A stretch of DNA of 64,000 bases. Origin: Merdibacter massiliensis. GTDB lineage: Bacteria; Bacillota_I; Bacilli_A; Erysipelotrichales; Erysipelotrichaceae. A program made the position numbers and the translations under genes. The stretch is from positions 186,001 to 250,000 of the forward strand of contig NZ_LT699727.1 of NCBI RefSeq assembly GCF_900155395.1, read 5' to 3'. Shown in pieces: positions 9,350 through 55,262 of this stretch (within the stretch, counting starts at the first letter, position 1; every line of letters starts with the position of its first letter). Under the pieces are notes generated by a model. It searched no databases, had not been told where the DNA came from, and was given only the letters and a program-made list of their open reading frames with translations.

Positions 9350-10533
9350 ATGTTTCTTGTCGGAATCGATATCGGTAAACTCTCTCATGTCTTCTGTATC
9401 ATGGATTCGACTACCGGTGAATTTCTTGTCGAACCTGTTTCGTTCAAAAACAATAAACAGGGATTCGATCTTTTAATAAACAAAATCAAATCATTTCCTG
9501 AAAAGAATGTTCTCATCGGAATGGAAGATACCGGTCATTACCATTTCAATCTTTTGAAATTCTTACTCGATGCCGGTCATACCGTTGCCCTGATCAATCC
9601 AGTAACTACCGATATGACCCGTAAAATGCAGCTTGGTGCCACCAAAGATGATAATCTGGATGCCCAGCTGATTTGTGATATTCTGGCTTCCAATCAAAGA
9701 AGAAAGGGTTACCGGATATCAAAAGTCAACAGCTTTGAACTCTATGAACAGAAACGATTGACCCGCGAACATCACGACCTCAAGGAACAGCTGAATGTCT
9801 ACTCCAACAAGCTACAGAAATGTATCGATATCGTGTTTCCTGAATTTAATTCTTTGTTTAGATCCAAATACGGAATCGTTTATATGAATGTGCTGAAAAC
9901 ATTCGGCAGTGCCGATTCTATCGCTCATGCCAATATACGCAGTATCCGTAAATGTTTTGAGACGAATGGAAGAGGCCGTCAGATTGCACTGACACCGGAA
10001 AGGCTGAAGAAGTGGCTAAAAATTCGATTGGTTTCCCCTCCAAGGCGGAAGTCATTGAAATGAAACATCTGATTGCCATGATGGAACTGATCCATGAGCA
10101 AATCAGAGAACTGGACAAAAAAATAGAAGAATTCAGCCTGCAACTAAACTCTCCTATCCTCAGCATACCAGGGATTTCTCATTTCTCTGGTACTTCCATT
10201 TTAGCGGAATTAGGAGATTTGCACAACTATTCCACGGCTTCTCAAATCATAAAGTTTGCCGGTGTATCTCCCTACAAGCACAAATCGAGCCAGTATGAAG
10301 CACAACATACGGCCATCACCAAGAAAGGATCGCGCTATTTAAGGAAAACACTCTACCAGGTTATCCTTCCGGTTATAAACTTCAATCCCGTGTTCCATGC
10401 CTACTATCGTCATAAACTGTCACAGGGCAAAGGACATCGATGTGCACAGGGGCACTGTGTAAGAAAGTTATTACGCATCATCTATCATTTGGTAACAACA
10501 AATCAACAGTTTGATTCGGAACTTTTAAGATAA
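9350..10533 (+). pseudogene. IS110-family transposase, frameshifted
   Basis: The first part (9350-10063) is the DEDD catalytic domain, with Asp in GIDIGKLSH, Glu in EDTGHYH and the Asp pair in TKDDNLDAQ. The second part (to 10533) is the C-terminal Transposase_20 domain with the Ser-containing FAGVSPYKHKSS. The two are in different frames: at 9998-10002 the sequence GGAAAGG needs one more A to continue from LTPE into KAEEVAKNSIG. IS110 transposases are normally one chain of about 400 residues and no good slippery heptamer is present, so a one-base deletion (or a homopolymer sequencing error) is the simplest reading. AAAGGA stands 12 bases before the ATG. Confidence 0.88.
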
Positions 10534-52037: not shown

Positions 52038-52849
52038 TCTTGCTCTCCTTTCATCAGATTCAAAAAATGCTGTTCCAACGTTCCTCTTGTAACTCGCATA
52101 TCTTTGATTTCAATTTTTTTTGTTTTGTACTTTTGCAATGAGGCAAGCAAAGAATCAACGACATTTTCACATTGATATTCCTCTTTCCCCAGCCTGCTTT
52201 GAATGACGACCTGATATTGCCTGCCTACTCGCTCATGCAATTGATTGATCGTTCCCGCAAATACTATTTTTCCTTGTGACAGGATTACTATTCGATCACA
52301 TAAGGTCTCCACCTCTGCCATATCATGACTGGCCAAGACGATCGTCTTTCCTTTTTCACGCAATAAACGAATCTGTTCATGAAAGGAAACACGACCCTCT
52401 ACATCCAATCCCGCACTCGGTTCATCTAAAAACAAGATATCTGGTTCTCGAAGCAAAGCCAGGGCCAAATGTACCCTCCGTTTTTGTCCCGTTGATAATT
52501 TGCCATAATACTGCTCAGAAAGATGGGAAACACCTAAAGCATGCAATTGTGCTTTATCTTCTGTTGTATGATTCCAATTGGCGAATAAATGAATTGCTTC
52601 TTTTACTTTGATGTATTCCGGTAAAGAAGCAGTCTGCAATTGAATACCAATTTTACCTCTTATCTCGATTTTTCCAGCATCATACTTGCGCAATCCTTCA
52701 AGACATTCGAAAGTGGTTGTCTTTCCCGCTCCGTTGACTCCTAACAAGCCGAAAATTTCACCTGCATGTACATTGAAATTGACACCATGCAGCACTTCAT
52801 TTTTCCCATAACGCTTTATTAAACCTTTGACTGTGATCATCTCTTTCAT
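52034..52849 (-). CDS. ABC transporter ATPase
   Basis: ATP-binding subunit of 271 residues for the neighbouring ABC-2 permease. Walker A LLGVNGAGKTTTFE, signature LSTGQKRR, Walker B DILFLDEPSAGLD, and the drug-exporter-type C-terminal extension. The start at 52849 has GGAGG five bases upstream. Just before that site is a GC-rich 6-bp hairpin (CCGCGC 52866-52871 with GCGCGG 52880-52885). A MerR gene in the same direction lies upstream, beyond the IS110 element, and probably belonged to this unit. Confidence 0.9.
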   Translation of the reverse strand: MKEMITVKGLIKRYGKNEVLHGVNFNVHAGEIFGLLGVNGAGKTTTFECLEGLRKYDAGKIEIRGKIGIQLQTASLPEYIKVKEAIHLFANWNHTTEDKAQLHALGVSHLSEQYYGKLSTGQKRRVHLALALLREPDILFLDEPSAGLDVEGRVSFHEQIRLLREKGKTIVLASHDMAEVETLCDRIVILSQGKIVFAGTINQLHERVGRQYQVVIQSRLGKEEYQCENVVDSLLASLQKYKTKKIEIKDMRVTRGTLEQHFLNLMKGEQE

Positions 52850-52946
52850 TTTTTCCTCCATTTCCCCGCGCCTAAAGTCGCGCGGACACAAATATTTCAT
52901 CAATAAATCCCACATGCTTTATTTTCGTGTTACCCTATAAGAGAGG

Positions 52947-52955
52947 TGGTATACT
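52947..52955 (+). promoter_or_regulatory. promoter of the IS110 leader RNA
   Basis: Extended -10, TGGTATACT. The transcript would begin near 52962. Confidence 0.55.
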
Positions 52956-52961
52956 ACAGAG

Positions 52962-53148
52962 CACGTGGAGGTGAGTAGGAATTCTACTCAATTGAATATC
53001 CTGTATTTTTATAAGTTGCCGTCATCATATCAAGCACAAATAAGTAGGACTTTGAGCCTGGACACTTATGATTGTTCAATCAACTGTTGTCGATTCGCTT
53101 TGATGACAGTCAATGCCACCTCTCCTTTTGTATGAAAGGAGCTTTTTT
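52962..53148 (+). ncRNA. candidate IS110 bridge RNA
   Basis: A non-coding stretch of about 187 bases between an extended -10 promoter and a strong terminator that ends just before the transposase ATG. It contains a 7-bp hairpin (TGAGTAG 52972-52978 with CTACTCA 52984-52990) near its 5' end and further possible loops. IS110 elements of the IS621 type make a bridge RNA of about this size from the same place, with loops that pair to target and donor DNA. The loops here cannot be assigned without the element's junction sequences. Confidence 0.5.
53122..53148 (+). terminator. terminator overlapping the transposase ribosome binding site
   Basis: CTCCTTT (53122-53128) and AAAGGAG (53135-53141) with a six-base loop, then C and six T. 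The AAAGGAG arm is also the ribosome binding site of the ATG at 53151. The hairpin can therefore both end the leader RNA and hide the transposase start. Confidence 0.85.
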
Positions 53149-53150
53149 AT

Positions 53151-54407
53151 ATGGCAATGAAAATCGTTCGTTTCAACTGCTGTGGCATGGATGTTCACAA
53201 AGATCTGGTCGTCGCTACTATTGGTATCACCGATAGACAGTCGAACATCACAGAATATTTCCAACAATCTTTTTCCACTTTAAACTCGGACCTATATCGT
53301 TTAAAGGATTGGCTGAATTCTTATCACTGTTGTGATGTCTGCATGGAATCTACCGGTAAATACTGGATCCCTATCTTCAACATTCTTGAAGGTGAGATCA
53401 ATGTCCATTTAACTCATCCCAAGTATGTCAAAGCCATCAAAGGCAAAAAAACTGATAAGAAAGATTCCAAATGGATCTGTGATCTCTTCAAACATGATCT
53501 GATCAAATTCTCGTTTATCCCTCCAAAAGAAATCCGAGAACTGCGTGAGATCGCCCGTTACCGATACAAGCTGGTCTGCATGCGTTCTTCAGAACGGAAT
53601 CGTTATCAGAACTGTATGACCGTTTCCAATATCGGATTAGCTTCTGTTGTCTCCGATCCTTTTGGCAAGACAGCTTCCAATATCATGAAAGAAGTCATGA
53701 AGCCAAACGTGATTGATGATGACAAGATCTTAAAACTCATTCACAAAAATTGTAAGAACAAAGATAAGATACTAGACTCCCTTCACGGCTATCACATCGA
53801 AGCGGATCAACGATTCAAGATGGAAAAATCATTGAATCATATGGAGTACTTGGATCAACTCATCAATTCATGTGAAGCAGAATTGGTCAAGCGGGCTTAT
53901 CCTTTACGCGAATCTTTCCAGCATATCACACAAATAAAAGGAATTAGTTCCTTATCGGCCATTCTGATCATCTCTGAAATAGGAATCGATATGTCTCAGT
54001 TTGAATCCGACAAACAACTTGTCAGTTGGGCTGGACTTTCTCCTGCCAACAACGAAAGTGCCGGCAAGAAAAAGTCAGTTCGTATCTCCAAAGCTGGACA
54101 ATATCTCAAACCACTGCTTGTCCAATGTGCTTTATCGACCATCAAAGATAAGACATCTTATTTTGGAAGAAAGTATTCCAATATCAAGAAACGACGTGGT
54201 CACAAGAAAGCCATCATTGCGATCGCACGCATGATGTTGGTCAGTATCTATCACATGATCCTAACAGGCGAAGTATTTCAACCAACGGATTATGAATCCT
54301 TCATGAATCCACGATCCGATACCAAACAATCACTAACAGTTGAAGAAGCATTAAACTTTTTGAAACAATCCGGCATTGATATATCTTCTATTCAAATCAA
54401 CTTATAA
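53151..54407 (+). CDS. IS110-family transposase, intact
   Basis: DEDD recombinase of 418 residues. RuvC-like N-terminal domain with Asp in CCGMDVHKDLVV, Glu in MESTGKYW and the Asp pair in KKTDKKDSKW; C-terminal Transposase_20 domain with ITQIKGISSLSAILIISEIG and the Ser-bearing SWAGLSPANNESAGKKKS. Unlike the copy at 9.4 kb the frame is unbroken; the two proteins are distant relatives, not copies of one element. Its translation start is enclosed by a terminator hairpin. Confidence 0.95.
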   Translation: MAMKIVRFNCCGMDVHKDLVVATIGITDRQSNITEYFQQSFSTLNSDLYRLKDWLNSYHCCDVCMESTGKYWIPIFNILEGEINVHLTHPKYVKAIKGKKTDKKDSKWICDLFKHDLIKFSFIPPKEIRELREIARYRYKLVCMRSSERNRYQNCMTVSNIGLASVVSDPFGKTASNIMKEVMKPNVIDDDKILKLIHKNCKNKDKILDSLHGYHIEADQRFKMEKSLNHMEYLDQLINSCEAELVKRAYPLRESFQHITQIKGISSLSAILIISEIGIDMSQFESDKQLVSWAGLSPANNESAGKKKSVRISKAGQYLKPLLVQCALSTIKDKTSYFGRKYSNIKKRRGHKKAIIAIARMMLVSIYHMILTGEVFQPTDYESFMNPRSDTKQSLTVEEALNFLKQSGIDISSIQINL

Positions 54408-54464
54408 ATTTTTTCGATATTTTTACTACTTATTTTTAAGTCGGCTTTTTTTTTACAGTTTTAT

Positions 54465-55262
54465 TCACACTTCACTCTCCTGAAACGGATTATCCTTTCT
54501 TTTCGAAAAATAAGCATTCAAAGCTTGTTCAACATAACTATTTGCTTCCTGCTGCTTTTGCTGCCACTGTTGATCCAGGTTCTCTGATTGTCCAAAAGCA
54601 ACAAGTTTCGATAAGATCTGCAGATCTCCTCCTGTAAAATGCATAATCATTTTCCAATACTCTTGTGCAAATATTTGTCCCTCTGCGCTGTCAGCGGGTA
54701 TATTTTGTTTTTTCAAAGTAATCGCCCGTTCTTGCAGAGACAGAAATCTTTTCATAAAAGCCCTTCCGCTTTGCTTATCAAAATGATTTCGGATATGTTC
54801 CAACATTTGATCATCGAAATGTTTGATCAAATAATAAAATTCATTGTGCATCTGCAAATTAACGATGATATCTGCATATTTTTTAAAGTCCACTGTACGC
54901 ATTTGCAAGACTTCTTCTCGAAGAAGCTCCAGCTCCTGTAAAGATTGTGTCAGCTTGTCTATCTTTTCACGAACTGCCGTTGCCTGCTCCTGCAAAACGT
55001 TTGCGACTTCTTGCGGAGTATCTAAAGAAATCAAGCGATTCTTAATATCACTTAAAGAAAAGCCTAAGTGTTTTAACGATAAGATCTGATGGAGACGGAT
55101 GACATCTTTGTCTGTATATAAACGACGTCCGCCGTCACTTATGGCAGTAGGATTCAGTAATCCTGCATGATCATAATGCTGTAATGTACGTACGCTGACA
55201 TCCATTTTTTTTGCTATTTCTCCGATAGTCATATATCGTTTGGCACGAGTTGTTTCTTTCAT
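54465..55262 (-). CDS. MerR-family regulator
   Basis: Winged-helix activator/repressor of 265 residues. The N-terminal domain YMTIGEIAKKMDVSVRTLQHYD binds DNA; a coiled coil (about 85-120) gives the dimer; the C-terminal 130 residues resemble the TipAS-like ligand-binding domain. The start at 55262 follows GGAGATGAG. Its promoter has the 19-base spacer and central palindrome of MerR-controlled promoters. The ABC exporter genes downstream in the same direction are its likely targets, but an IS110 element now lies between. Confidence 0.9.
   Translation of the reverse strand: MKETTRAKRYMTIGEIAKKMDVSVRTLQHYDHAGLLNPTAISDGGRRLYTDKDVIRLHQILSLKHLGFSLSDIKNRLISLDTPQEVANVLQEQATAVREKIDKLTQSLQELELLREEVLQMRTVDFKKYADIIVNLQMHNEFYYLIKHFDDQMLEHIRNHFDKQSGRAFMKRFLSLQERAITLKKQNIPADSAEGQIFAQEYWKMIMHFTGGDLQILSKLVAFGQSENLDQQWQQKQQEANSYVEQALNAYFSKRKDNPFQESEV

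Follow-up and report, generated by a model that had tools for sequence, protein, structure and literature searches.

The leader which precedes the recombinase gene of an IS110-type element in Merdibacter massiliensis very probably encodes a bridge RNA in which three guides can be read. It is found at about 52941–53148 of the window, as we call the whole stretch of 64,000 nucleotides analysed here (contig NZ_LT699727.1, positions 186,001 to 250,000). We consider it likely, with considerable confidence, that this RNA steers the adjacent recombinase to translation start sites by means of a guide which imitates a Shine-Dalgarno (SD) sequence. A bridge RNA at this place had been proposed in an earlier sequence-only reading. 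The proposal passes the computational tests which that reading had suggested: collection of copies, definition of ends and core, covariation of the leaders and complementarity to the flanks. The bridge RNA thus appears to be real, and comparison of sequences supports it well. Targeting of the SD and start codon by an SD-like guide, which is its most notable feature, was absent from the earlier reading. The coordinates of all features are given in Table 1.

Table 1. Features of the IS110 element and of its insertion site, in window positions
Feature	Position	Strand	Basis
Interrupted host gene, ABC transporter ATP-binding protein, 271 aa	52034..52849	-	ATG is CAT 52847-52849
Three variable target bases and core base beside the start codon	52850..52853	+	Vary among copies with identical RNA; match the guide
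IS110 element, type 1 copy	52854..54472	+	Aligned junctions of 21 full-length genome copies; left boundary certain within about 2 bases
Replacement SD GGAGG	52855..52859	-	Five bases from host ATG; same in 21/21 copies; putative function
Probable bridge-RNA -10, TGtTACCCT, weak in the window copy	52928..52936	+	Conserved position
Predicted bridge RNA	52941..53148	+	Covariation and guide matches
P1 closing stem, 5' arm GAGAGGUGGUAU; approximate RNA 5' end	52941..52952	+	Covariation
Right target guide GGAGGUGAGU	52967..52976	+	Guide changes between copies go with target changes in G012 and L144; permutation
P3 hairpin, between both target guides	52977..53002	+	Stem permutation
Left target guide	53004..53010	+	Covaries with left junction
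P2 stem, 5' arm (partner 53101-53107)	53021..53027	+	Stem permutation and covariation
Left donor guide ACACUU, same sequence as right element end ACACTT	53062..53067	+	78/85 own right ends
P1 closing stem, 3' arm AUGCCACCUCUC	53113..53124	+	Covariation; three-base overlap with RBS hairpin
Hairpin predicted to sequester the RBS (53122-53141), then U tract (53143-53148)	53122..53148	+	Window copy; predicted function
IS110 recombinase gene, 418 aa	53151..54407	+	Domain matches and IS621 alignment
Right element end ACACTT, core included	54467..54472	+	Junction alignment and donor-guide match
Displaced host SD complement CACTCTCCT (AGGAGAGTG on the - strand)	54473..54481	+	Junction alignment

The element is intact, as had been claimed. 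Its recombinase contains the domains DEDD_Tnp_IS110 (PF01548) and Transposase_20 (PF02371), both above the cut-off, and aligns with that of IS621 across the catalytic regions. Of the 21 full-length copies in the genome (2.47 Mb), 11 belong to type 1 and are over 99% identical to the window copy; the other 10, of type 2, share about 90% identity with it. Alignment of all 21 defines the ends and the core: the non-coding left end is about 300 bases long, the right one about 65, and the junctions have no target duplication. Many relatives also have a conserved motif CACAAA(T/C)A, common to the left-end DNA (52893–52900) and to the RNA (53034–53041). One related copy in genome G012 (L151) has no CCTCCATTTCC block in its left end; its left terminus has probably been lost.

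All copies are found in the same kind of site. The left flank ends in CAT and the right flank has CCTCC, or a close variant, within a few bases. On the opposite strand the CAT reads as a start codon and the CCTCC as an SD: every insertion (21/21) falls between a start codon and an SD-like sequence. The CAT starts an open reading frame of at least 50 aa in 20 of the 21 copies, the exception being L017; in the homologues, 16 insertions out of 89 are not at long open frames. As a control, CCTC or CTCC is present in the next 12 bases at just 46 of the 963 CATNNNT sites of the window. A rigid register of the SD was considered and found no support, since the spacing between SD and ATG varies in the targets at least as widely as it does in ordinary genes; the register of the right guide shifts by a few bases.

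The bases at the left junction appear to belong to the target. Some copies with an identical RNA differ there by wobble-compatible bases, T/C in type 1 and G/A in L122/L123, which points to a target origin of these DNA bases. We also searched for empty sites in two other species of the genus. The SD–ATG spacing in insertion-free relatives fits the assignment of 52850–52853 to the target at three of the four sites (L003, L015 and L018); at L016 it is at odds with the empty-site model.

For the guides we compared about 100 homologous elements, drawn from Erysipelotrichales, Lachnospiraceae, other Clostridia, Streptococcus and Enterococcus. In an unbiased scan, which set each RNA column against each DNA position, the left target and left donor guides rank highest, as colinear stretches. 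The left target guide is (U/C/A)AU-NNN-(U/A) in the RNA, and the left junction is CAT-NNN-(T/A). In 66 non-redundant loci, RNA positions 53007–53010 match the left flank and core as follows: 60, 62 and 64 matches at the three variable positions and 66 at the core, versus permuted means of 29.0, 25.3, 41.8 and 47.7. Positions 6 and 7 after CAT are also above permutation, with 49/66 (permuted maximum 46) and 32/66 (maximum 30); they might correspond to the handshake pairing described for IS621 (PMC11208158). The left donor guide matches the right end of its own element in 78 out of 85 cases, versus 13.0 when permuted (maximum 23). In the scan the right-end part used guide-anchored ends, while this donor-guide test did not. 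Guide and right end change jointly in relatives: ACTCTT, AATCTT, AAACTT, ATACTT, ACACTA and others are found. Two loci, L076 and L092, have no CAT at the left; the flank there resembles the right end of an IS110 element (..ACACTT) and the guide matches it, which suggests that these copies have inserted beside another element.

The right target guide is the 5' segment of the RNA, GGAGGUGAGU, which imitates an SD. Copies in genome G012 are 98–100% identical overall, they differ in this guide and their flanks differ correspondingly. In L144 the guide GGCUUUUAG is found at the flank CTCAAAGCC, with 8/9 pairs. The corresponding permutation values are 0.0025 in G012 and 0/2000 at other loci. Our permutations ignore relatedness, so that these figures are not exact probabilities. 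Complementarity to target and donor flanks, to which the sequence-only reading had pointed as a check, is therefore present in the left target, left donor and right target guides.

Two alternatives should be weighed at this point. The GGAGG segment might be structural, with the target SD recognised in some other way and only the left target and left donor sequences acting as true guides. Its register is indeed not rigid, and the segment is so strongly conserved that most of the alignment carries no covariation there. However, the copy- or family-specific changes that do occur follow the right flank (L144, L155, L164 and L165), and CAT-NNN-T by itself is far too frequent to account for 21/21 gene starts, so that we find this explanation unlikely. 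A more radical possibility is that the leader is a regulatory 5' UTR alone, with an attenuator and RBS sequestration, and that recognition by the protein, or the selective loss of harmful insertions, accounts for the position at start codons. The hairpin, the U tract and the RBS overlap described below are real in the window copy; an element which lands between SD and ATG and brings a new SD should do almost no harm, and selection would retain such insertions. Selection alone, however, would leave many intergenic insertions too. A regulatory UTR also leaves unexplained why, across families, bases of the RNA change together with the target and with the right end, and why guide and target do so between copies of one genome. 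We regard it as very improbable, and keep the bridge RNA as our interpretation.

The predicted bridge RNA runs from about 52941 to 53148, approximately 205 nt. A leader of about 187 bases had been proposed; a non-coding leader of about 200 nt does precede the transposase gene, but the predicted RNA is longer than was thought. It is closed by a 12-bp stem, P1, which RNAalifold predicted unprompted. In relatives P1 is swapped for unrelated complementary sequences, for example GAACAGCAA/UUGCUGUUC in L078 and AGAAUAUAUAAA/UUUAUAUAUUCU in L096. The covariation score of P1 and P2 together is 0.664, versus 0.265 in shuffled alignments and at most 0.272 when they are slid by 1–3 columns. Covariation folding of the leaders, also suggested earlier, thus gives strong support to the closing stem by compensatory changes. 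P3 exceeds its stem permutation (5.54 versus a mean of 4.63 and a maximum of 5.02), and the leader as a whole folds better than shuffled sequences (z = -2.83). No Rfam family matches the leader.

The extended -10 box that had been proposed as promoter, TGGTATACT (52947–52955), cannot be retained as a conserved one: comparative data place it inside the P1 stem, within the RNA. The conserved -10 is found just upstream of P1, where 57 of 76 homologues have a TATAAT-like box (at least 5/6); a control region further upstream has one in 5/76. There may be an additional internal transcription start.

At the 3' end of the RNA we find a hairpin of 8 pairs, CTCCTTTT-GTAT-GAAAGGAG, followed by T6, which ends two bases before the ATG. 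The arm GAAAGGAG is likely to be the ribosome binding site (RBS) of the transposase. Both features had been noted from the sequence. Between 52830 and 53200 this is the only terminator-like site, versus 0.2 expected in shuffles, and termination would take place at 53143–53148. In 43/46 homologues the sequence which pairs best with the RBS region shares bases with the 3' arm of P1, and the pairing of leaders with their own RBS is above permutation (7.48 versus a mean of 6.72 and a maximum of 7.22). This evidence is moderate, because pyrimidine-rich arms pair easily with purine-rich SDs. In the window copy CUC (53122–53124) is common to P1 and to the RBS hairpin, so that both cannot form fully; this exclusion might act as a switch which controls translation of the recombinase.

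The idea that one hairpin could both end the RNA and block the RBS is structurally right for the window element; the U tract, however, is mainly found in close relatives, and what recurs broadly is the pairing of the RBS with a partner that overlaps P1. The 3' end of the bridge RNA could instead be generated by processing, the U tract being incidental or associated only with read-through. In favour of this, most of the distant homologues have no U tract and keep the RBS pairing, and for ISEc21 short seekRNAs are reported to be more abundant than the longer form (PMC11187229). On the other hand, the U tract is part of the sole terminator-like site of this region, where 0.2 would be expected by chance, and is shared by close relatives. 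Processing is a serious possibility, which we place somewhat short of probable.

In the window the element parts an ABC-transporter gene from its own SD. The genes interrupted by the copies include metK, ribosomal protein L9, TypA, XerC/D-like, PhoB-like and ABC proteins. The only metK of the genome has a type 2 copy between a SAM riboswitch (L018:3195–3290) and its ATG. Since metK is normally essential, its expression has probably been retained despite the insertion; its transcription and regulation should be altered. A consensus scan of the left end did not find any outward sigma-70 promoter. The left end also has an open frame on the - strand of 52850–52915 (ATG at 52915). The fixed distance to the host ATG keeps it in the reading frame of the host gene, to which it would contribute 22 residues; most type 1 copies have 23 open codons here.

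These features may be combined in the following mechanism. The recombinase would bind the RNA, once it is made. The 5' guide GGAGGUGAGU would pair with the strand complementary to the SD of the host gene. The second guide (U/C/A-A-U-NNN-U) would pair with the left half of the target, formed by the start codon, the three variable bases and the core, and the third, ACACUU, with the right end of the element itself. In this way the element would come to lie between the SD and the start codon. Its left end would supply a new SD, GGAGG, at five bases from the ATG, so that the host gene can remain translatable. The RNA would be closed by the 12-bp stem. Since the 3' arm of this stem shares bases with the sequence predicted to pair with the transposase RBS, folding, transcript ending and recombinase translation could be coupled. 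The overlap makes such a coupling of guide RNA and recombinase directly testable.

We may tentatively extend this model to a large clade of IS110 elements, a generalization which is quite possible, though short of probable. They would have an SD-imitating bridge RNA with inverted guide order and a replacement SD, and would be nearly neutral for expression even in essential genes. Competition between closing stem and RBS hairpin would make translation of the recombinase depend on the folding of its own guide RNA. The mechanism proposed for the window element, for its part, suggests how an element can sit before essential genes such as metK. It also points to natural retargeting of bridge RNAs between copies of one genome, and offers an inverted-order set of guides for engineering.

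Among known systems the closest comparison is with IS621, a member of the IS110 group which has a structured bridge RNA upstream of the DEDD recombinase gene (PMC11208160, PMC11208158). Both RNAs have guides for the two target strands and for the donor, hairpins between guides and a similar length, and in both the variable bases beside the core look programmable. The order of the guides is different: here the top-strand guide is 5' and the bottom-strand guide 3', the reverse of IS621, as 53004–53010 is found 3' of 52967–52976. The window RNA also differs by its 5'/3' closing stem, by a promoter inside the left end and by the SD/start-codon target; a right donor guide, unlike in IS621, was not found in it by eye or by the all-against-all scan. 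ISEc21 has the guide order of IS621, so that the window RNA is the reverse of both. The seekRNAs of IS1111 elements share the order of the window RNA, since the top-strand complement precedes that of the bottom strand (PMC11187229). However, IS1111 elements have their RNA downstream of the transposase gene and subterminal inverted repeats. In the window element the RNA precedes the gene, within the left end, an arrangement shared with the IS110 group, and we saw no such repeats in the element by eye.

Other IS110 elements are present in the same genome. A distant one has five copies (L187–L191) of about 1590 bp, with an open frame of 394 aa. The leader contains AAAGGAG, each copy has CTCCTTT at its right edge, and a CAT which opens a long frame lies 9–11 bases before the left end; this suggests SD-like targeting of the same kind. 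A further IS110-type transposase is found at 9350–10533 of the window; its reading frame is split into two parts, of 237 and 173 aa, which overlap, and it is therefore probably disrupted.

In the open-licence literature we found no start-site targeting explained by an SD-like guide. A known precedent for the targeting itself is IS900 of Mycobacterium avium subsp. paratuberculosis, an IS110-family element which inserts at translation initiation signals (PMC8141618, citing Doran et al. 1997). Its target motif CATGNNNNNNTCTCCTT has the same layout of start codon and SD as the sites described here. The host belongs to a different phylum, and the article offers no explanation by an RNA guide. The bridge RNA of the window element provides a possible RNA-guided explanation for this old observation.
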